Source: Cyclobacteriaceae bacterium
GTDB lineage: Bacteria > Bacteroidota > Bacteroidia > Cytophagales > Cyclobacteriaceae
DNA length: 32,537 nucleotides
Assembly: GCA_013140555.1 (NCBI GenBank)
Contig: JABFSO010000475.1
Coordinates: 1-32,537, forward strand
Reading direction: 5' to 3'
Part shown: in pieces, positions 11,889-30,601 of the stretch
Layout of the letters: every line of letters begins with the position of its first letter
How positions within the stretch are numbered: the first letter of the stretch is position 1
Made by a program: the position numbers and the translations under genes
Notes under the pieces: generated by a model
Database searches by the model: none
The model's input: the letters and a program-made list of their open reading frames with translations, nothing else
What the model was told of the DNA's origin: nothing

Positions 11889-13373
11889 GTGGCTCTAGCA
11901 AAACATATCCTTTCCAAATCTACCTTTATGTATGGATGTCAGTGCCCCAAGCGGCTGTTCCTGCATAAGTTTAAACGTGAAGTGCGAAACCCTGGGGATG
12001 AACAGCACCAAGCCATCTTAGATGCAGGCACCCATGTGGGCGAACTCGCCAGACAACTTTTCAAACATGGTGTTGACGCTTCGCCTCCCGACCATTATTC
12101 GTATCACATCTCAGTTGAGAAGACGAAAGCGCTCATTCAAAGGGACGTGCCCATTATCTATGAAGCCGCCTTTCAATACGAGGGTGTTTTGTGTGCCGTG
12201 GATATACTCGTAAAACAAGGGAAGCGCTGGTATGCTTTTGAAGTGAAGAGTACAACGAGTGTAAAAAATCAACACATTCAGGATGCCGCGTTGCAATATT
12301 ATGTGGTGCGCAACTGTGGCTTACCGCTCGAAGATATTTCCATCATCTATCTCAATCGGGAGTATGTGCGAAAAGGCGAACTGAACATCAAGCAGTTATT
12401 CACTACCCAATCCATCCTCGCTGAAGTGCTAGAGCTACAGGACGATGTGGCGATCAAGATCAATGAACTGAAAGCCTTGTTGGCACAACGTGAAATGCCG
12501 ATTGTTGATATTGGCCCGCATTGCCTTGCGCCTTATGTGTGCGATTTTACGGATCATTGCTGGGCACACATCCCAAAAGAGAATTCTGTGTTTGAATTGA
12601 TGCGTGCACCTTCGTGGGAACTCTACGATGCCGGTTACATACATTTAGATGAAATTCCGCTCGACTACGAACTGAGCAGCAAAGTGCTGAAGCAATTGAC
12701 TCACTACCGCTCCGGAGCGATTTATATAGATAAAGAAAGCATTCGCGAATTTCTTGAACCTCTTACCTACCCGCTTTACTTTTTTGATTTTGAAACCATT
12801 ATGCCGGGAATACCGGAGTTTGACGATAGCCGACCGTATCAGCAGATTCCATTTCAATTTTCTCTACACGTTCAACAAAAAAAAGAGAGTGAGTTAGCGC
12901 ACTTTGAATTTCTGGGAGATGGACTTAACGACCCCAGACCTGCACTGATAGAAAGCATGATTGACTTACTTGGAAGTTCTGGAAGCATTATCTGTTACAA
13001 TATGTCTTTCGAAAAATCAAGAATCAACGAACTGGCGCAAACCTACCCCGAATATGAAGCAGCGCTGCTTTCCATTCATAATCGTATTGTTGATTTGATG
13101 ATTCCTTTTCAAAAGCAATGGTATTATCATCCTGCTTTTAAAGGAAGCTATTCCATAAAAGCAGTATTGCCGGTGCTAGTGCCTGAATTAACATACAGCG
13201 ACCTTGCAATTCAGGAAGGTGGCACAGCAAGTTTTGTTTATTCTCAATTAAAATATCAGAAGAAAGAAACAGTCACCGTTCAGCGCGAACAGTTGCTGGC
13301 GTACTGTCAATTGGATACTCTCGCGATGGTGAGAATTCTTGATTATTTGAAGCAAATGCTTCAAGCGGAATAG
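11889..13373 (+). CDS. DUF2779 protein: PD-(D/E)XK nuclease plus RNase H-like exonuclease
   Basis: 494 residues, GTG start; the N-terminus LSKSTFMYGCQCPKRLFLHK is the normal family opening, which supports that start. Residues 1-230 form a RecB/Cas4-like nuclease: D105, E118-x-K120 in AFEVKSTTSVK, Q136-Y137, and a probable iron-sulfur cluster from C17/C19 with C212, C218 and C224 (HCLAPYVCDFTDHCW). Residues 295-490 form a DEDD-type RNase H-like exonuclease: D300-F-E302 in YFFDFETI, YNMSFEKSRI (371-380), D402 and D476 in YCQLDTLAM. The family (PF11074) has no established role; repair or defence are both possible. It is the only confident plus-strand gene here. Confidence 0.85.
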   Translation: MALAKHILSKSTFMYGCQCPKRLFLHKFKREVRNPGDEQHQAILDAGTHVGELARQLFKHGVDASPPDHYSYHISVEKTKALIQRDVPIIYEAAFQYEGVLCAVDILVKQGKRWYAFEVKSTTSVKNQHIQDAALQYYVVRNCGLPLEDISIIYLNREYVRKGELNIKQLFTTQSILAEVLELQDDVAIKINELKALLAQREMPIVDIGPHCLAPYVCDFTDHCWAHIPKENSVFELMRAPSWELYDAGYIHLDEIPLDYELSSKVLKQLTHYRSGAIYIDKESIREFLEPLTYPLYFFDFETIMPGIPEFDDSRPYQQIPFQFSLHVQQKKESELAHFEFLGDGLNDPRPALIESMIDLLGSSGSIICYNMSFEKSRINELAQTYPEYEAALLSIHNRIVDLMIPFQKQWYYHPAFKGSYSIKAVLPVLVPELTYSDLAIQEGGTASFVYSQLKYQKKETVTVQREQLLAYCQLDTLAMVRILDYLKQMLQAE

Positions 13374-14275: not shown

Positions 14276-16609
14276 TCAATTCTCAAGCATGACAAACGCT
14301 CCCCAATAATAAGGATGAGGATATTTTTTTTCCAGCTCCAGCTGTGCTTCTTTAAGCGCTTCGGCTTTACTCATGCCCCCCATCCAATTGGAATAAAACG
14401 AAATCATCAGTTGTTGTGTGGCGATGTCATCTACTTTCCATAAACTCATGATAATGGATTGCACGCCTGCCGTTTGAAAGGCGCGCTGCAAGCCATATAC
14501 ACCTTCACCATTTTGCACTTCACCACGACCTGTTTCGCAGGCGCTCAACACCACCAGATCCGTATTATCTAAATTTAGATTCGATGCTTCATAGGCGGTT
14601 AGTATTCCGTTTTCTTCATCGAGTTGTTCCTGATTTTGTATAAAGTTAGATGCACCTGTCAACAAGAGGCCCGATCGCAACAGTGGATTTTGATCGTCCC
14701 CCGTATTCATTTGACTGTTCTTATTTTTTTCATCTATAAAAAAACCATGCGTGGCAATGTGCAGCAGCCGCGGATGATTTACTTTTTTCAGTTGTGCTTC
14801 GGTTGCCTGTTCAGCCATAAAAGAAGAGGTGTTCAGTTTACCATTCTTTAAAATGGTTTCAACTTTGTTGATCTCTTCTTGTGTACCTGCCAATGGGCTA
14901 ATGCCTGTGCGATCAGTTTCTGCCGCTCGATCCATCGCTTCACCACGTTGGTGCGCAGGTGTTAGATCTTTTCCTTTATTTTGTTTTCCTAAAAAGAAAG
15001 TAGGGAAACCAAATAGCGTGGCTGTAGAAGAGCTCATGCGTTTGATGCGCCTTCCCTTCAGAGCCAGCAAATCTTTGGTGTTGGAAAGGAGCGTTAAATT
15101 TTTATCGGCCACTAAATAATTTCCACCGGGTAGCAGTAGTGTATTTAAATTGATTTGGTTATACACACCATCCAACGACAGATATAATCTTGACTTTCCG
15201 GTTACCGCTGGGGCAATCATAGCCCAAAAGTTTTGATAGGAAATCGTATCCTTCAGCTGGCTCGTAATGGCATTCTTATAGAAACGCAATGCGCGGCCTT
15301 CCAATAATTTTCCATTGGGCAACAGCACCAGCTTGGGCGCAAGTTTGGTTTCGGCTGTAAGAATGAGTGCCGCATAGATAACACTATCGCGCACATAGCG
15401 ATCATAATATCTGAAGCGCACCATTTCAACTGCAGCTTCTTTCGGGCCAAGCGATGCTTGCACTTGTTTCCAGGTTACGCGCTGCGTGCCTTTATCCGCT
15501 GCCACATCTTCGGTGGTAATGTTCATTTCCTTTTCCAACGTATTGATGGAAATTTTTAACGAATCGATCCGCGCCTGTTTGGTTTTTGGGTCGATCCCCG
15601 AAAGGGCATACAGTTTGGATAACTGGTCGCGTTGGTTTGTCCATCGATAATACGTATTTACCATCGAGGTATCTCTGCTGGTCAGAATTCGTTTTTTTAT
15701 TTTGTTGGATGCGTTTAACAATATGGCTTTGGTGGCCAGTTGAATATTATACATATCGCCAACAATAGCAGGATTTGCTTTGGCCCGTTGAATAGCGAAC
15801 GAATGAAAGGTGCGGAAAAAGCCGCTGGTACTGTTCCAGAATTGTGCTTTCTCTTCATCGCTCATGAAGTAAAAATTCTCTTCGGTGTATTGCAATAGAG
15901 ATCGGGTGATAGCCGCCCACTCAGCCTCTGTTTTTTCATATTGGCCGGTGGCCTGATAGTAAGTTGCCCAATGAGATTGCGTGCCTATTTGCAAGATTCG
16001 ATTCTCCTCGTCACCCGATTTTTTGCGAATTATTTTTGATTCTTCCAAATGCGCACCTGCCTTGGCGTAGTCGCCCATACATAATTCGATGCTGGCCAGG
16101 TTTTGGATTAAAGTTGCCAAACTGGTTTGCTCTATTTCTGTCAGGTTGGTTTTGCGATGGTATGCATCGATGCAAAACTGGTATTGCTCTTTTGCTTTTT
16201 CAAATTGGTTGCGGTTCTTGGCAATGATGCCCAGGTAATTGTGCAGGTTGATGGACAGCCAATGTTCGCTTCCTACTTCTGCTTCGGCAATTACTAATAG
16301 TTCATTGATTTCCTTTTCGGCTTCGTCTTTCTTGTCTAAGTTATAATAATTCCAAGCTAAGTTTGTACGTACACGGGCATACGAAAAGTTTTTACCATAC
16401 GTACGTTCTATAAACCTGGTAATGCGCAGCAGCACCTCTTCACAGGCTTGATAACGGCCCAGCTTTGAATAAAAACTCGCCAGCTTTTCACCCGCCTCTA
16501 TGTAATTGGCCGAATTGTTTAGCGAATCGCTCAATGAAACCTCAAATGCTTCTTTGAAAAGTGCTTCGGCTTCTTTGTTTTTATCGCGTTCATTTTTTAC
16601 TTGTGCCAA
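14276..16609 (-). CDS. TPR-CHAT protease-like part of a MORN_2-TPR-CHAT protein
   Basis: The reading frame from a TTG at 16607-16609 gives 777 residues. There is no ATG near its start, and it is in frame with the upstream MORN_2-TPR gene through one TAA at 16646-16648, so it is better read as that protein's C-terminal part (frame 14276-16645). TPRs fill the first ~260 residues and a helical linker follows to ~400. The CHAT caspase-like domain occupies ~550-777: catalytic His621 in LLHIATHGFF and Cys691 in VVLSACETGRGEVQNGEGVY, with the usual GVQSIIMSLWKVDD and final YYWGAFVMLEN. CHAT domains are predicted cysteine peptidases (separase/caspase clan). If translation starts only at the TTG, the product would stay in the cytoplasm. 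Confidence 0.85.
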   Translation of the reverse strand: MAQVKNERDKNKEAEALFKEAFEVSLSDSLNNSANYIEAGEKLASFYSKLGRYQACEEVLLRITRFIERTYGKNFSYARVRTNLAWNYYNLDKKDEAEKEINELLVIAEAEVGSEHWLSINLHNYLGIIAKNRNQFEKAKEQYQFCIDAYHRKTNLTEIEQTSLATLIQNLASIELCMGDYAKAGAHLEESKIIRKKSGDEENRILQIGTQSHWATYYQATGQYEKTEAEWAAITRSLLQYTEENFYFMSDEEKAQFWNSTSGFFRTFHSFAIQRAKANPAIVGDMYNIQLATKAILLNASNKIKKRILTSRDTSMVNTYYRWTNQRDQLSKLYALSGIDPKTKQARIDSLKISINTLEKEMNITTEDVAADKGTQRVTWKQVQASLGPKEAAVEMVRFRYYDRYVRDSVIYAALILTAETKLAPKLVLLPNGKLLEGRALRFYKNAITSQLKDTISYQNFWAMIAPAVTGKSRLYLSLDGVYNQINLNTLLLPGGNYLVADKNLTLLSNTKDLLALKGRRIKRMSSSTATLFGFPTFFLGKQNKGKDLTPAHQRGEAMDRAAETDRTGISPLAGTQEEINKVETILKNGKLNTSSFMAEQATEAQLKKVNHPRLLHIATHGFFIDEKNKNSQMNTGDDQNPLLRSGLLLTGASNFIQNQEQLDEENGILTAYEASNLNLDNTDLVVLSACETGRGEVQNGEGVYGLQRAFQTAGVQSIIMSLWKVDDIATQQLMISFYSNWMGGMSKAEALKEAQLELEKKYPHPYYWGAFVMLEN

Positions 16610-16645
16610 TGCAACCAGATAAGATTCTGCGTTCGACCTTTTGCC

Positions 16646-16648
16646 TTA
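16646..16648 (-). other. in-frame TAA dividing the giant MORN_2-TPR-CHAT frame
   Basis: From the ATG at 20446 to the final stop at 14276 the frame is continuous except for this single TAA, which is followed by GGC. Codons on both sides read ...AIIRATE-stop-GKRSNAESYLVALAQV..., and TPR-like helices resume directly. The other two frames are not open here. Possible causes are a nonsense mutation, programmed readthrough, a sequencing error, or a true gene split. Confidence 0.85.
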
Positions 16649-19600
16649 TTCAGTGGCCCGAATAATAGCAACCGCATCGGAAAGATATTTTTCAGCTTCC
16701 TCCAAGCGATTTCGCTCCTGATAAAATTGGCCTAACGTAAGCAGAAATGTGGCGTACTTAGGGTGATCCGTGCCATATAACTTTCCGGCTACTTCCACTC
16801 CTTTACGTTTATACATTTCGGCATTCTCAAATTCTTTTAAGTCGGCATAGCTATAGCCCAGTAGAGTGAGCAGGTTTGTGTAGGTGAAATTTACTTGCCC
16901 CACATTGGCATCTAAGAAGGCGATTTGTTTTTTAGCCAGCTCCACTGCTTTTTTATAGTCATTTAAGGAATAGTAAGCATTGGCAATTTTATATTCTGTA
17001 TAATGATAATCCGGATCTAAATTGCCGGATACCTTTGCGAATCCTGCCGCCACTTGTGTATACAATTTTATAGCTTCCGAATACACACTGTTGTACGAAT
17101 GAATATCGCCCAACACGGTTAGGCTTAATATGTGCGTAACCGATCCGGCACCAAAATTCCTTTCGGCAACCTGTATTGCTTTTTCAGCATAGATCTTTGC
17201 CTGCTGATAGTCGTTGAGGTATTTGTAACAATCTGCTATTCCGCTTAAGGAATTGCGGCACATGCTGGCAAATCTACTCTCGTGCATGCTAAAAATAGAC
17301 CAGGCATTTTGGTAATGATCTATGGCTTCTTTGTATTGATTTCTGGAATCATACGCATCCGCCAGATAGTATTCCGTATTGGCAAGGTTCGCACTGTCCT
17401 TTAATGCAATCAGTGTTGGCTTTAATTCATTTAGCAAGACTATTGCTTTATCGTGGCTATGAGAAGAAATGTAAAAGCTGGCAAGCTCTATGGTGGCCTC
17501 CTGGTAGCGCGTTGAGTTCGTTCCCGATATTTTTTTTCGTATTTCAATCGCTCTAAGAAAATAGGACTCCGCCTTAGCCGTTTGGCTTGCATCTACCTTT
17601 AACTGAGCAAAGGCCATATTTTGAAGTATCGCAGAATGACTCAACGTATTTTCTTTGCCAGCCTGTATTACGGCCCTTTCCGCCCGCATGGCATAGCTAA
17701 GACCTTCATCATTTTTGTGCTGATCTATGTAATACTCGCCAATTACCTTAAATATTTTTGCTTGGGTAGCGCTATTCATCGCAGGCAACGCCATCAACTT
17801 ATGGATAGACTCCGTGTAACAAGCCTGCGCCACTGAATCTGTTTCTCTGTACGATCGGTAATTATAAAATAATTCGATGAGTTGGTCAGGATATTCCGGC
17901 AAGTCGGTCATTTTGTTTCGTTCGGCAAAGGCTGTGGCTCCTTTATAAAAGGGGATAGATTCAGCCTCCTTATTGAACTCATAGTTGTTCATGTAAGCCA
18001 GGCGTCTATAACAATCAAACGCCAGCGAATGATCGGGTTGATTGGCTGCTATGATATCATCGAGCAAGTCTTTGTATAAGGCATACGACTTCTTATAATC
18101 ATCCGGTCTGTCATAATAATATTCAGCGACTTCGTGGCGCAGGTACCAACCCGCACTTGAGTCGGGGCCATAGAGTGCAGTCGATTTAGCCAACTCGATA
18201 TCAAATAAAGTGGCAGCTTCTTCAACTTTTCCGGCATCATAAAGACAATATGCTTTATTATTCACCGAGCTCCAATAGTTTTTAACCAGGCCATCTCCGG
18301 TTGCTCCTTCTATGGCTTCGTCATAATACGCAAGCGCTTCATCATATTGATGTAGCCCATGATAAGCAGAGGCTACATTATGCACAGCCGTTTTATAACT
18401 ATTAGACTGCGTGCCTTCATACTTCTTACTTTTTTTAAGGTATTGAAGCTGCCATGACAGGGCTTCTTTATAATTGCCCATAGAGGCATACGTTCTACCT
18501 TTTACGGAGATCGGTAATGTTTGATCTTTCCGATCAGAATAATCACGTTTAGTTACCTTCATCATCCAATCGCATGCCTTCAAGGCGAGTTCAAAATCTT
18601 CGCGATCAACTAGATGTTGCACGCTGTCTCGTATATTATCCCGTGTTTCCTGAAACCCGTTGATGTAATATTCCCTACTTCTTACTTTGCCTTTGCTGTT
18701 GTAGTAAACCCATACGCCATTTAGTTTTCCATTCACGAACACGCCTTCACCACTCTTCTGTTGCGAGGCAGAATCGTACTGCACCCATTTGCCATCGGCA
18801 CGACTATTTTTATAACTGCCGGATTCTTTAAGCTTGCCGTCATGATAATATCGATTGGTTGGCCCTTGCAACAGTCCATTTTGATAGACTGATTCAAAAC
18901 CTTTTGTGCCGTTGAGATTGTACTCGATGTATGCGCCATGAAGGGTATCTCGATTATAAAAGATCTGATATTGAAGCTTCTCATTTTCATAATACCATTT
19001 CCACTCCTTGTTTTTTTGGCTGTGCAGGTAGGCGCCCTCATGTTCGCGCACACCACTTTCGTAATAGGAATAGCTCATCCCTTCTGCCTTTCCTTCTTTG
19101 TATTCTTTCCACGACTTTTGTTTACCGTTGGGATAATAGCTAATTACTTCACCGTGCAGCAAACCTGATTGATAGGTTTCTGTATCTTCCAGAACGCCCT
19201 CTAAGGTAAAGTACTTCCATATACCTTCGCGCACACCATTTACATAGGTGCCTTCGGTTTTCGGTTGTCCATTTTCATGGTAATATTTCCACGGTCCATC
19301 TTCCTTGCCAATGATCCAATTGCCTTCCGATTTAATCTTTCCATTTTCATGGTAATTTTTCCAAGGCCCATCTTCGTTGCCCATTATTTTCTTTCCTTCG
19401 CCCTTCTTGTTTCCATTTTCATAATAGCTAATAGAGGCACCATGGATTGTATCTCTTTTATAAAAGTTGTGGTCACTGACATTGCCATTTGCATAGTACA
19501 AGATCCAATCACCTTCGTAATGATTTTCATGAAAAAGACCTTTGCCACTGAGTTTGCCATTATCGTAATAGTATTCCCACGTTCCTTCACCAGCGCCATT

Positions 19601-20446
19601 CACCATCAGGCCAGTCTTTTGCACTTTACCATTGGCGTGAAAGAAGGTCCAGCGTCCATCCATTTCATTCTGTGAATAGCGCCCTGCTCTTTCCACTTTT
19701 CCGTTGCTATGATAGCTCGTCCATTGTCCTTCCTTGGAATCGTTTATAAAGAAAGCTTTTTCTTTTGTCGAGCCATCTTCAAAGTAAGATTCGTAAGCAC
19801 CCATCAATTTTCCTCCTTTGTAGTTTGCCTTGTCTGTCTTTTTTCCATCTTCAGAAAAGTTTTCCCAAAGCCCATCTACTAGATTATTTAGATAGTGTGC
19901 ACGGCTTTTCAGTTTTCCGTTAGGGTAATAACTTTGCATGGGACCATGGAATTGGCCGTCTTTATAATCTAGTTCGATTTGTATGGTTCCATCCGGGTAA
20001 AAGTAAATCCACGTGCCCTGTGCCTTTCCATCTTTGTATTGTCCTTTTATTGTTAAGTTTCCCTCTGGTGAATATTCTATGCTTGGGCCATCTAATAATC
20101 CTTGTTTATTAAACTCCTTTCGGTTCAACTTTCCATTCTCATGATAAAAGTTTGATTCTCCATCCATCACATCCGGAAGGATGGAAAATAAGTATCCATC
20201 CCATTGTTTAATTCCTGTTTTGTAGAAGTCGCGCACTTTGCCCACAGGTTTGCCCGCTTCAAAGCGAATGAGGCGATAATAAATGACCGAATCGATGGTG
20301 TGAACCTGATGCCAGCTACTGTCATACCAGATCGTCCAATGCCCGGTACGCAACCCATTCTCATCCATTACATTGGGGGAAATGGGATATTGTGCCTTTG
20401 CGATAAGAGAGCAAAGGATAAGTAGGGATAAAACAAATAATCTCAT
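16646..20446 (-). CDS. exported MORN_2 (YwqK-type) repeat and TPR protein
   Basis: 1266 residues from the ATG at 20444-20446, chosen because it gives a clean signal peptide (MRLFVLSLLILCSLIAKAQ); the reading frame extends to 20530. Residues ~30-625 carry about 22 MORN_2 repeats of about 23 residues, with the pattern DG.W..YY.NGK....G.Y.NG...G (for example EDGPWKNYHENGKIKSEG). Databases often label such proteins 'YwqK family antitoxin', a name with little functional support. Residues ~640-1266 are TPRs (YHGLHQYDEALAYYDEAIEG, RNQYKEAIDHYQNAWSIF, DLKEFENAEMYKRKGVEVAG). The next in-frame segment is a TPR-CHAT domain, so the intended protein is about 2055 residues. Surface or periplasmic binding scaffold plus protease is the likely design (inference). 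Confidence 0.85.
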   Translation of the reverse strand: MRLFVLSLLILCSLIAKAQYPISPNVMDENGLRTGHWTIWYDSSWHQVHTIDSVIYYRLIRFEAGKPVGKVRDFYKTGIKQWDGYLFSILPDVMDGESNFYHENGKLNRKEFNKQGLLDGPSIEYSPEGNLTIKGQYKDGKAQGTWIYFYPDGTIQIELDYKDGQFHGPMQSYYPNGKLKSRAHYLNNLVDGLWENFSEDGKKTDKANYKGGKLMGAYESYFEDGSTKEKAFFINDSKEGQWTSYHSNGKVERAGRYSQNEMDGRWTFFHANGKVQKTGLMVNGAGEGTWEYYYDNGKLSGKGLFHENHYEGDWILYYANGNVSDHNFYKRDTIHGASISYYENGNKKGEGKKIMGNEDGPWKNYHENGKIKSEGNWIIGKEDGPWKYYHENGQPKTEGTYVNGVREGIWKYFTLEGVLEDTETYQSGLLHGEVISYYPNGKQKSWKEYKEGKAEGMSYSYYESGVREHEGAYLHSQKNKEWKWYYENEKLQYQIFYNRDTLHGAYIEYNLNGTKGFESVYQNGLLQGPTNRYYHDGKLKESGSYKNSRADGKWVQYDSASQQKSGEGVFVNGKLNGVWVYYNSKGKVRSREYYINGFQETRDNIRDSVQHLVDREDFELALKACDWMMKVTKRDYSDRKDQTLPISVKGRTYASMGNYKEALSWQLQYLKKSKKYEGTQSNSYKTAVHNVASAYHGLHQYDEALAYYDEAIEGATGDGLVKNYWSSVNNKAYCLYDAGKVEEAATLFDIELAKSTALYGPDSSAGWYLRHEVAEYYYDRPDDYKKSYALYKDLLDDIIAANQPDHSLAFDCYRRLAYMNNYEFNKEAESIPFYKGATAFAERNKMTDLPEYPDQLIELFYNYRSYRETDSVAQACYTESIHKLMALPAMNSATQAKIFKVIGEYYIDQHKNDEGLSYAMRAERAVIQAGKENTLSHSAILQNMAFAQLKVDASQTAKAESYFLRAIEIRKKISGTNSTRYQEATIELASFYISSHSHDKAIVLLNELKPTLIALKDSANLANTEYYLADAYDSRNQYKEAIDHYQNAWSIFSMHESRFASMCRNSLSGIADCYKYLNDYQQAKIYAEKAIQVAERNFGAGSVTHILSLTVLGDIHSYNSVYSEAIKLYTQVAAGFAKVSGNLDPDYHYTEYKIANAYYSLNDYKKAVELAKKQIAFLDANVGQVNFTYTNLLTLLGYSYADLKEFENAEMYKRKGVEVAGKLYGTDHPKYATFLLTLGQFYQERNRLEEAEKYLSDAVAIIRATE

Positions 20447-20727: not shown

Positions 20728-21777
20728 CTATTTTTTTTGTGGACGATAAGCCGATGAATAAACAATCAAAGAATAGCTTGAGTACAAATACTGGGAATCC
20801 TCTTCTTTAATAACGAGGTAGTTAATTGTATTTTCTTTATCCTGAAAGAGGCTAGCGGTAACTTGTTGTTTGTTGAGCTGACTCGTCAAAAAACGATCTG
20901 AAGTAGAGAGCGAATCGTGCGTGTACTTTGCTTTCATGTGCTCTAATATGCCTCGGGTTGTGGAACCAAAAGTAACGTGAATGTATCTCAGCGTATCAGA
21001 AACAAAATAAAGCATAAATGTGTGTTTTTTGGTTTCAACCACTTTTGTAATGGAGTCTACGCAAACAGCATCGTCTACACGCATGTGCATCGTTCGATCA
21101 ATATCAAACTCATCAAATAAAACATGCCCTACCTCTTCCTTCGTTATTCCGAGAAGGCCATTAAATTGATAATATTCGGTTCCTACTCTCCTACTCTCGA
21201 GCTCTGCTTCTATTTTCTCGCGCCTCCAGGGAAATGAATTTTCAATCGTAAGTTCATATTTATTTTCTTTACCTTCGATGTAGCATTTATCAATTGTACA
21301 ATTGAAGATTACCTGAGAAAATTGATGTTGAACCAAAAATGATCCACTAAACCAAGTCGTATCATTGTAATCTCGCCTCCAGGTAAAGTCGCTTATAATT
21401 CGAGCATCATACTTGTGGACTAGCTCACTAATTGTTGCACTGTCCATTTTATCCAAGTAAATCATGCAGAAACGATCGGATACACCTTTAATTTCACATC
21501 GGATATCATTGATATCTTCTGCATCACTACACGCTTCGTCAAATTGATAGTTTATCAAGGTATCGCCTCGTTGCAATCCCAGCATTGGAACATCGACCGG
21601 CCTGAATGTATACCCTGCTTCTAAGAGCGAAGTTTCGGTCACATTAAAATTAACTTCGAAAGGGTCGAATGGCGGTGTTGTGTCCGCTCGGGTAGGCCAA
21701 TAAAAAAGAAACAAGATTGCATTGGACAAAAGAGATACAATCAATACCACTGTTAATACAACCTTTCTCTGATCCAT
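20728..21777 (-). CDS. membrane-anchored protein of unknown function
   Basis: 349 residues with one N-terminal hydrophobic segment (VVLTVVLIVSLLSNAILFLF, 6-25), probably a signal anchor with the rest outside the cytoplasm. Six or more cysteines, including ACSDAEDINDIRC and FNCTIDKCYI, fit disulfide bonding. No family is recognised. The neighbouring intergenic sequences (20531-20727 and 21778-21952) contain no gene; the latter holds a CTGCTGATAGCAG motif shared with the 39-bp repeat. Confidence 0.6.
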   Translation of the reverse strand: MDQRKVVLTVVLIVSLLSNAILFLFYWPTRADTTPPFDPFEVNFNVTETSLLEAGYTFRPVDVPMLGLQRGDTLINYQFDEACSDAEDINDIRCEIKGVSDRFCMIYLDKMDSATISELVHKYDARIISDFTWRRDYNDTTWFSGSFLVQHQFSQVIFNCTIDKCYIEGKENKYELTIENSFPWRREKIEAELESRRVGTEYYQFNGLLGITKEEVGHVLFDEFDIDRTMHMRVDDAVCVDSITKVVETKKHTFMLYFVSDTLRYIHVTFGSTTRGILEHMKAKYTHDSLSTSDRFLTSQLNKQQVTASLFQDKENTINYLVIKEEDSQYLYSSYSLIVYSSAYRPQKK

Positions 21778-23206: not shown

Positions 23207-24184
23207 TTAATGTGTTTCCGTAATTAATTTGGCATCTGCATTCCAAACCTTAATTTTTCCTGTGATACTTGACGTGATGATTTTTTCTGATTTACTATTC
23301 CAATCCAATCCCCATAACAAGTCGTTGGATTTTCCAGTACTTAATAATTCTCCATTTGCATTCCAAATTCGAAGAGCATCGCTGGCAGAAGCCAAAAGAG
23401 TTCCCGATTTATTCCATCGAATGTTTCTGTATTCTGCTTTGCTTCCATAGAGCGTTTTAGTCAATGTTCCATCAAGCTTCCAAAACTGAATAATGGATTG
23501 TATGCCATCCTGGTCGTGACCATAATCGCCTGTTGCAAAAAAATCGCCAGATGGATGCCAACAAATAGTTAAAATACCAGTGTTTTCCTTTCGATGCTTA
23601 ATTACTTTTAATGTTACGCCCAAAGTATCCATCATTCTTATATCGTCTCCACTCACCGCGATGATGTTTTTACTTGGATGCCAGCTAATAGAAAAATAGC
23701 TATTGTTGTCTCCTTTTTTTATTGTCCGCAGTAAACTACCTGTCGAGTCCCAAATTTTTACCAGCCCCTCATTGTCCGCAGTTGCCAGGAGCTGACCATT
23801 GAAATTCCAATCAATTCCTCTTGCCCCATAATTTATTCCGTTTAGTTTAATGAATTTTTTCGTTTCGATATTTAAAATACTTACTTCATCTTCATTGGTT
23901 GCTATGGCTAAAATATTACTTGTGGGGTGCCAACTTACTTGCCTTATCATACTTTTAAGTTGATAGGATTTAATGAGTTTTAAATTTTTACTGTCGTAAA
24001 TTCTTACTAAACTGTCATCGCCACCTACAGCAATTCTTTTATCATCGGCACTCCAGTCCGCTGTCCATAAAAGTGTTTCCACTCCTTCATTTTTTGGTTT
24101 GTTTGTTGAAGCGGTACTCTGTCTACAAGAAGATTGCAGGAGTAATAAAGAAACGAATAAGTAAAGTGCAAAGCTTTTTACCAT
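23207..24184 (-). CDS. WD40-repeat lipoprotein
   Basis: 325 residues from the ATG at 24182-24184. The longer frame begins in a repeat element with GTG and is not preferred. The lipoprotein signal is FALYLFVSLLLLQSSC. The mature protein is a run of seven WD40-like blades, each with W-(H/N/S)-x-(S/D) and a final (I/V)-(R/K/Q)-(I/F)-(Y/W)-(D/N): LWTADWSADDKRIAVGGDD, VSWHPTSNILAIATNED, IDWNFNGQLLATADNEG, ISWHPSKNIIAVSGDD, ICWHPSGDFFATGDYG, IRWNKSGTLLASASD, LDWNSKSEKIITSS. It is probably a periplasmic or outer-membrane propeller scaffold. It heads a likely three-gene operon. Confidence 0.88.
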   Translation of the reverse strand: MVKSFALYLFVSLLLLQSSCRQSTASTNKPKNEGVETLLWTADWSADDKRIAVGGDDSLVRIYDSKNLKLIKSYQLKSMIRQVSWHPTSNILAIATNEDEVSILNIETKKFIKLNGINYGARGIDWNFNGQLLATADNEGLVKIWDSTGSLLRTIKKGDNNSYFSISWHPSKNIIAVSGDDIRMMDTLGVTLKVIKHRKENTGILTICWHPSGDFFATGDYGHDQDGIQSIIQFWKLDGTLTKTLYGSKAEYRNIRWNKSGTLLASASDALRIWNANGELLSTGKSNDLLWGLDWNSKSEKIITSSITGKIKVWNADAKLITETH

Positions 24185-24220
24185 AAGAACTATAATTGTT
24201 AGAGGGGGCCTTCTTGCATG

Positions 24221-24325
24221 CCACACAACAGTATTATATCCGCATGATTTACATAAAATTTTCGCATACCTCACTCATACCAGTACTTTGTTCTACCAAA
24301 TCTCACCAATCTCTCCCAAATGCAA
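24221..24325 (-). repeat. composite element A with attC-like end, second subtype
   Basis: The minus strand reads GAGATTTGGTAGAACAAAG, GGTATGAGTGAGGTATGCG, TTTTATGTAAATCATGCGG and ATATAATACTGTTGTGTGGC. It is near-identical to 24975-25075, and the two diverge exactly after TGTTGT. The GTATGCG/CATGC arms are inverted. It lies directly upstream of the WD40 lipoprotein. Confidence 0.8.
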
Positions 24326-29083: not shown

Positions 29084-30601
29084 TTATTTATTGATCTCTT
29101 TACTAATTTGTTTAAGTTTCTCTATTACTTCTTTTGCACTTTCCTTAAATTTTTCCTTGGCTTCATCTTCGTGTAAAGCAATCCATTGTTTCACTTCATC
29201 TAACAGCTGCTTCTTAGCATTCCTTCGTTTTTGTTTATCTGTGATACTAATAATTCCGTCCACCTTTAACTTGAAATTAGAAGGATAATATTTTTCAAAA
29301 TCATGCTCACTGAATTGACTAAAATTTGATTCATTCCAACCAGCTTTAGTGTACTTTTCCTTTATCTTCTTTATTATTCCTTCTTCTTCTTCTCCAGTAT
29401 CAATAATAACCCAAACTTTATTCTTGTATGTTGGTTCTAAATGCAGAAAAATGAATAGCTTATCAAAATCCTCGAATTTTGGAATAACAGCAGAGCTTCC
29501 TCCGGCTGAAAAAGTTCTTATTTTACCTTTTAGTGGCTTAACAAACCAGTCTATCAAATAATCTCTAATTATAATTTCAGCAGATGATTCTTCTAAGAAT
29601 AACCAACCCTTCCACAAATCAAAATCAAAGAAATCATATCCTAATTCTTGAAGCACCTCTCTCCTCTCTTCTGGATTGTTGGAAACTTCCTTTAAAGTAG
29701 AGACAAATAAATTAGGTCTATCTGCTATTTGCCCAATTGAATTGCTAATATGAAATACTTTAGAATTATTGGATGCACCGAGATACTTCATTACTATATT
29801 TGAATGAGTAGATATAAAGAATTGGTTGGATTGGGATTTTTCAACAATCAAATTTAGTAATGCCTTTAAGGCTTTAGGGTGAATATCGTTCTCAGGTTCC
29901 TCTATAAGGAAAATTCTTTCCTCCGCAACACATAAATCAGTTATTAAGCCTAAGACGTTAGCAACACCTTCTCCCATTGAAGTAAGAGGAATGTGCTCAA
30001 GATTATGGACAAAGTAAACAGCCTGTTTACCTCCACCCTTTGCTAAAGAAGAAACTTGGAACCCTAAAATTTCATCACAGGCCTTAACATATTGTCGATT
30101 ACCTGGTTGAAATTGAGGCGTTACCAATCGATCTATTTTTGAAAACAAGTTGGTAAAATTACCTATTACTGAGTTAGCATTGCTTTCATTTATAACATCT
30201 TGATAACCTGCGGTCTTTCTTTTTGATAAGTATGGATATATCAAGTTTAAAGGTTCATGCTCTGGAATTTGGCTCGGCCATCCACTCCTGCCTCCAGTAG
30301 TCACACCCAAATTTCTTACGCCATTTAACAACTCAAATATAAATGAGTCTAATCCTGAATTATCAGGTATAAAAGGTAAGTGTTTCCCTTCGAAGTAGAG
30401 CTTAATGATATTAGTAGTTTGCCCAATTGTAACATCTTGAGAGTTAAGAACTACTCTCTGTATATTAAAAATGGTATTTAAAATGGTAGTCTTACCTGCA
30501 TTATTGGGCCCGATAAAAACATTGATTGATTTTGAAAATTGAGTTTTAGGAACCTCCAGAAACCCTCGTAAGTTTTTAATTTCTATCCCAGTAATCTTCA
30601 T
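29084..30601 (-). CDS. OLD-like AAA ATPase with probable C-terminal TOPRIM nuclease
   Basis: 505 residues. ABC-type ATPase core: Walker A GPNNAGKTT (31-39), signature-like TSMGEGVANVLGLI (207-220), Walker B IFLIEEPENDIHP (230-242), and switch histidine in FFISTHSNIV (H266). From ~335 a TOPRIM-like part begins: LFLEESSAEIIIRDYLI (first acidic residue E337/E338), FSAGGSS (364-370), then VWVIIDTGEEEE (D401), ending in a charged helical tail. The canonical D-x-D of TOPRIM appears as D-T-G-E, so nuclease activity is not assured. OLD-family proteins act in phage defence and DNA repair. No GajB-like helicase or reverse transcriptase neighbour is present. Confidence 0.78.
   Translation of the reverse strand: MKITGIEIKNLRGFLEVPKTQFSKSINVFIGPNNAGKTTILNTIFNIQRVVLNSQDVTIGQTTNIIKLYFEGKHLPFIPDNSGLDSFIFELLNGVRNLGVTTGGRSGWPSQIPEHEPLNLIYPYLSKRKTAGYQDVINESNANSVIGNFTNLFSKIDRLVTPQFQPGNRQYVKACDEILGFQVSSLAKGGGKQAVYFVHNLEHIPLTSMGEGVANVLGLITDLCVAEERIFLIEEPENDIHPKALKALLNLIVEKSQSNQFFISTHSNIVMKYLGASNNSKVFHISNSIGQIADRPNLFVSTLKEVSNNPEERREVLQELGYDFFDFDLWKGWLFLEESSAEIIIRDYLIDWFVKPLKGKIRTFSAGGSSAVIPKFEDFDKLFIFLHLEPTYKNKVWVIIDTGEEEEGIIKKIKEKYTKAGWNESNFSQFSEHDFEKYYPSNFKLKVDGIISITDKQKRRNAKKQLLDEVKQWIALHEDEAKEKFKESAKEVIEKLKQISKEINK

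Follow-up and report, generated by a model that had tools for sequence, protein, structure and literature searches.

Closest described CHAT proteins and the interrupted gene

To our knowledge, known bacterial CHAT proteases, in which HG and SAC motifs hold the His/Cys pair, are for the most part cytosolic components of CRISPR or cell-death systems. The gene considered here encodes a MORN_2-TPR-CHAT protein with a signal-peptide-like start and occupies positions 14276-20446 of the minus strand (to which all coordinates of this gene refer) in a 32,537-bp stretch of DNA from an uncultured Cyclobacteriaceae bacterium (assembly GCA_013140555.1, contig JABFSO010000475.1, positions 1 to 32,537), hereafter called the window. 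Its reading frame is interrupted by a single TAA, and the stretch that follows is referred to as the post-stop half. On balance, this interruption probably goes back to a recent nonsense mutation, private to the lineage, that struck one of the gene copies for an exported MORN_2-TPR-CHAT protein.

In a fold search with the post-stop half, the first distinct kinds of protein to appear were Csx29/Craspase, DdvA and separase, all of them loose matches with template modelling (TM) scores on the query of 0.25-0.47 and large root-mean-square deviations (rmsd). Csx29, the TPR-CHAT protein of the type III-E CRISPR Craspase, combines TPRs with a CHAT domain carrying a His and a Cys, as does the window protein. 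The accessible text of PMC10028731 gives H615/C658 as its catalytic pair and describes a change in the TPR part that is relayed to the CHAT active site. The top fold matches were 8d9g_A (E 4.7e-11) and 8eey_B (E 1.1e-10), and the likeness to Csx29 is loose, with 11-12% identity, TM scores on the query of 0.39 and 0.47 and rmsd values of 12.8 and 10.5; the window protein differs from it in having a signal-peptide-like start, recognized by hydropathy only, and about 22 MORN_2 units. No RAMP (PF03787) match that would indicate a gRAMP/Cas7-11 partner was obtained in the genome of the same organism, which is 94% complete, the control being matched in 4 of 14 genomes. Assignment to a type III-E Craspase was rejected on the missing RAMP match, and also because the window protein, again by hydropathy only, is not free of an export signal.

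The transmembrane anti-sigma factor DdvA, as it is named in PDB entries 8rw5 and 8rot, matched the fold of the post-stop half with E values of 2.6e-10 and 3.2e-10, TM 0.28-0.30 and rmsd 17-19. It provides a membrane-associated precedent, whereas no anti-sigma family was matched by the window protein in the Pfam scan and no second membrane-like segment is present in it (later hydropathy maximum, 1.51). We take the CHAT-like part of DdvA to face the periplasm; no structural paper on this protein was found in the literature search. Separase (best row 9hma, E 8.0e-10; 9-12% identity in the rows listed) likewise joins a helical part to a caspase-like protease but is eukaryotic, unlike the window protein. 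When solved structures were searched by sequence, the best 60 of 99 matches were TPR proteins aligned on the N-terminal part, kinesin light chains first, and no CHAT protein was named among them. Within the same phylum, the accessible text of PMC11854122 places CHAT-domain proteins, one of them apparently transmembrane, beside type VI secretion system effectors of Bacteroides fragilis; it makes no mention of MORN repeats, and the likeness is one of description only. No publication joining a CHAT domain and a MORN repeat was found in the PubMed Central library searched, nor did the titles and opening lines of abstracts listed by a broader search yield one on MORN_2-TPR-CHAT proteins.

A single in-frame stop in an otherwise open gene

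Translation of 14276-20446 gave one frame of 2057 codons, stops counted, in which the only internal stop is the TAA at codon 1267 (16646-16648), besides the terminal stop. The post-stop half (14279-16645) comprises 789 codons without a further stop and encodes the remaining TPRs followed by the CHAT domain (TPR_12, E 3.9e-16, and CHAT, E 1.1e-63, in the Pfam scan). The preliminary description had considered the frame continuous from 20446 to 14276 but for one TAA, and both the translation and the Pfam matches on either side of the stop bear this out. The continuity is more than chance, because the homologue L009, with 85% identity to the window protein before the stop and 86% after it, runs through the stop position. 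The open reading frame (ORF) finder placed the start of the gene at ATG 20530, while the signal-peptide-like segment begins at ATG 20446.

Past the TAA, the in-frame start codons are TTG 16609, TTG 16534 and GTG 16435, and the earliest ATG, at 16078, lies 189 codons in, in agreement with the earlier remark that the downstream part has no ATG near its beginning. In an AlphaFold2 model of the post-stop half, built with 30 sequences (mean predicted local distance difference test score 82.6), the first predicted helix comprises residues 4-19; the TAA is thus in a loop, and the TTG at 16607-16609 (residue 13), the earliest ATG, GTG or TTG codon past the stop, is within this helix. A working two-part gene, consisting of an exported MORN_2-TPR sensor and a separately started cytosolic TPR-CHAT protease, would agree with a stop in a loop, with a post-stop half that is predicted to fold well alone, and with the constraint found on both halves (see below). 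Such a division is nevertheless very unlikely, since none of the 11 intact homologues is split, no ATG occurs for 189 codons and a TTG start would cut the predicted helix.

A further argument against the two-part gene comes from truly split genes of the same genome. Two RND transporter genes, L092 (contig C207) and L093 (contig C121), are each divided into two frames; in the former, the ATG of the second part lies a few bases before the stop of the first part, and in the latter about 10 bases after it. Among the matches listed for the second part, 16 of 20 have frames of 557-678 residues (two of these from the same genome, and one at a contig end) and four are undivided (1,058-1,081 residues), the short frame being present in 14 of the 18 listed from other genomes. 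Assembly noise was therefore rejected as the origin of these two splits, as the two-gene arrangement is common to relatives, and they served as a positive control. Both hallmarks, an ATG at the junction and a split that recurs in relatives, are missing from the CHAT gene.

Regulated readthrough or recoding of the TAA, yielding a low level of full-length protease, would account for a frame that stays open for 789 constrained codons, but it is extremely improbable, given that the homologues manage without a stop and that TAA is the usual terminator, no search aimed at a readthrough signal having been made. The latter closes 11 of 19 window ORFs (hand-picked for this count, the post-stop half included) and 8 of the 11 intact homologues. 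Stop-codon reassignment was rejected on the same grounds, TAA being a common normal stop.

Conservation in relatives and constraint on both halves

At E ≤ 1e-100, the post-stop half had 96 matches, spread over 44 of the 58 genomes searched (that of the organism itself, 35 of the genus and 22 of the order). The scan of public genomes yielded one close relative, L009, which is apparently the same record as G010 and was counted once. At least 11 homologues with lengths near 2,000 residues proved intact, namely L009, L058-L065, L089 and L090 (the last two among the matches listed). One of them, L058, is a paralogue on contig C419 of the same genome and has a 1,997-residue frame. The 11 homologues resemble the window protein in length, in the hydrophobic N-terminal segment and in the His and Cys residues, but none shares its stop: each is read in one uninterrupted frame and has a sense codon where the window gene has the TAA. 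Near the stop, the alignment is secure for L009 and perhaps one residue off for the others, which is immaterial as none has an internal stop. The disabling change is thus missing from the homologues, as expected of a pseudogene, and the arrangement of two consistently separate genes, envisaged in the preliminary description, was found in 0 of 11. One additional relative, L066 (genome G012), is itself broken and is not among the 11; its two segments are read in different frames, and the about 67 residues that should join them are absent or substituted.

The comparison with L009 revealed no further stop or frameshift. The ratio of nonsynonymous to synonymous substitution rates (dN/dS) against this homologue was 0.151 for the part ahead of the stop (bootstrap range 0.122-0.185) and 0.138 for the post-stop half (bootstrap range 0.106-0.177), with 0.089 for the CHAT part alone. 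Derived residues were counted on the window branch and on the sister branch against 10 outgroups. With at least four outgroups agreeing, the respective numbers were 21 and 21 before the stop and 13 and 12 after it; with at least six, 10 and 12 before and 9 and 6 after; and with at least eight, 3 and 8 before and 2 and 0 after. No acceleration indicative of relaxed constraint was therefore seen on the window branch with these 10 outgroups, and a recent event would leave none visible. As purifying selection is similar on both sides and the branch is not accelerated, there is no clear sign of decay, and the downstream half has not undergone a long one.

Other interrupted genes in the draft genome and in the genus

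Seven CHAT matches at E ≤ 1e-20 were obtained in the genome of the organism. A second TPR-CHAT gene, L067 (contig C291, 6481-9327), is broken by one in-frame TAG; at this position sense codons are present in the two closest homologues that cross it, L081 and L084 (60-61% identity), and in most of the distant ones, some of which show an alignment gap. An RND transporter gene of the same genome, L091 (contig C269, about 1848-2095), is frameshifted, and no long homopolymer was seen at the junction.

A census of breaks covered 16 CHAT loci, chosen among the matches listed because their frame was short or a stop had been recorded in them (other short-frame matches, such as G073:C227, G015:C18 and G074:C396, were left out). 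Four of these loci are broken internally, L073, L075 and L080 by a frameshift and L085 by a TAG, while 11 are cut by contig ends and one (L088) is ambiguous; the frameshifts of L073 and L075 were judged from the ORF layout alone. Stops inside matches occurred in 2 of 96 TPR-CHAT rows, one of them belonging to G012, whose gene carries the larger break, against 1 of 150 RND rows among the matches listed, a selection weighted towards the best. These numbers are too few and too unequally sampled to claim an excess of stops in CHAT genes.

It is possible that the TAA is a consensus or assembly error, or an allele of a minor strain in the draft, and that most cells carry an intact gene. The genome is a draft of 498 contigs with 94% completeness, two of its seven CHAT matches lie in genes that each carry a single in-frame stop, an RND gene has a frameshift, and in all other respects the window gene looks intact. 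The second stop-bearing CHAT gene and the frameshifted RND gene fit a general source of error as well as they fit real gene loss. Speaking against an error, all 22 TonB-barrel matches of the same genome are without an internal stop, the TAA site has no homopolymer run and leaves the frame unchanged, and a search of the draft genome for another contig carrying a variant of this region gave none.

The assignment of the TAA to a recent nonsense mutation is favoured by the sense codon in all 11 intact homologues, by the similar constraint on both halves, by the poor restart sites and by the intact paralogue in the same genome, and also by the finding that some other CHAT genes of the genus are broken too, each differently. 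Several points weigh against it. The stop is known from the assembled consensus alone, where an error is possible; the same draft contains the other CHAT gene with one in-frame stop and the frameshifted RND gene; the stop falls in a predicted loop ahead of a helix, where a split would harm folding least; and an unrelaxed post-stop half is predicted equally by a recent mutation, by an error and by a half that is still in use. Of the three options offered in the preliminary description, the recent nonsense mutation is thus retained, with an assembly or consensus error as its close rival. Neither regulated readthrough nor a functional division between an exported sensor and a cytosolic protease gains support: the intact homologues are continuous in 11 of 11 cases, there is no good downstream start and TAA is an ordinary terminator.

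If the nonsense mutation is real, translation would yield an exported MORN_2-TPR protein of 1,266 residues without the CHAT domain, and the last 789 codons would be untranslated or nearly so. No protease would then come from the window locus, while the paralogue on contig C419, which is intact, may continue to provide one.

Domain architecture and gene neighbourhoods

The signal-peptide-like segment, assigned by hydropathy only, comprises the first 19 codons from ATG 20446 (20390-20446), with a mean Kyte-Doolittle value of 2.51 across 15 residues directly ahead of an AKA-Q site; a hydrophobic N-terminal segment was likewise present, by hydropathy, within the first 60-90 residues of the frame in all 12 family members. 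The MORN_2 region (18662-20251, residues 66-595; PF07661, E 1.1e-53) comprises 22 MORN_2-like units, 19 strong and three weak, according to a profile made from the repeats of the protein itself, which is circular, whereas only three single units pass the Pfam model individually; the earlier figure of about 22 repeats is a fair count in these terms. MORN_2 was matched in all ten homologues scanned (L089 was left out). The TPR region before the stop (16649-18586, about residues 621-1266, the left limit being chosen by the authors) was matched by TPR_12 with E 4.2e-45.

The CHAT domain (14285-15217; PF12770, E 1.9e-64 in the search of the organism's own genome) scored 215.9 bits against a curated cut-off of 24, confirming its membership of the family. 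The presumed catalytic residues are encoded at 14747-14749 (His of the HIATHG motif, residue 1900 of the full frame) and 14537-14539 (Cys of the SACETG motif, residue 1970). The same residues occur in 12 of 12 family members, and both (H633 and C703) are invariant in the alignment of 30 sequences, consistent with a CHAT His/Cys pair. Neither half matched any NCBIfam family over its cut-off or any defence-system profile of PADLOC.

In the window, the gene directly upstream (20728-21777) has no Pfam match, and a WD40 beta-propeller protein is encoded further upstream of the CHAT gene (23207-24274, minus strand). An AAA_15/AAA_21 ATPase of 505 amino acids (29084-30601, minus strand) resembles AriA/GajA-type defence ATPases in PADLOC, and a DUF2779/RNase_H_2 protein (11889-13373, plus strand) gave a weak Cas4-like match. 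Among the intact homologues, whose neighbouring genes were selected by visual inspection (L058, L063 and L065 being left out), OmpA-family/PD40 proteins are encoded near L061 (3123-5183), L089 (542-2602) and L064 (12353-14125), a protein with TPRs and a caspase domain (C14) is encoded upstream of L060 (2694-4445), and L059 has an M24 peptidase as its neighbour instead. Envelope-type neighbours thus accompany some homologues, and no rule is claimed.

Nature of the intact protein

As judged from its sequence, the uninterrupted protein is probably a TPR-CHAT protease of the extracytoplasmic space. The sequence also agrees with the suggestion of the preliminary description that the normal protein would place a CHAT domain, preceded by MORN_2 repeats, outside the cytoplasm. 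The signal peptide would carry the chain across the inner membrane, and the MORN_2 and TPR repeats may form a scaffold or ligand-binding part. By analogy with Csx29, we infer that the His/Cys CHAT domain probably acts outside the cytoplasm as a switched, site-specific endopeptidase. A broader proposal, that large exported MORN_2-TPR-CHAT proteins form a class of extracytoplasmic caspase-like proteases and that independent mutations inactivate their genes again and again in natural populations, so that the stop would be no accident but one loss allele among many for a protease that is costly, appears rather unlikely. The stop itself carries little weight, as it denotes a single gene copy that is either inactive or mis-assembled; of more interest is the intact, little-studied family, whose members are CHAT proteins that carry an export signal and have about 2,000 residues.

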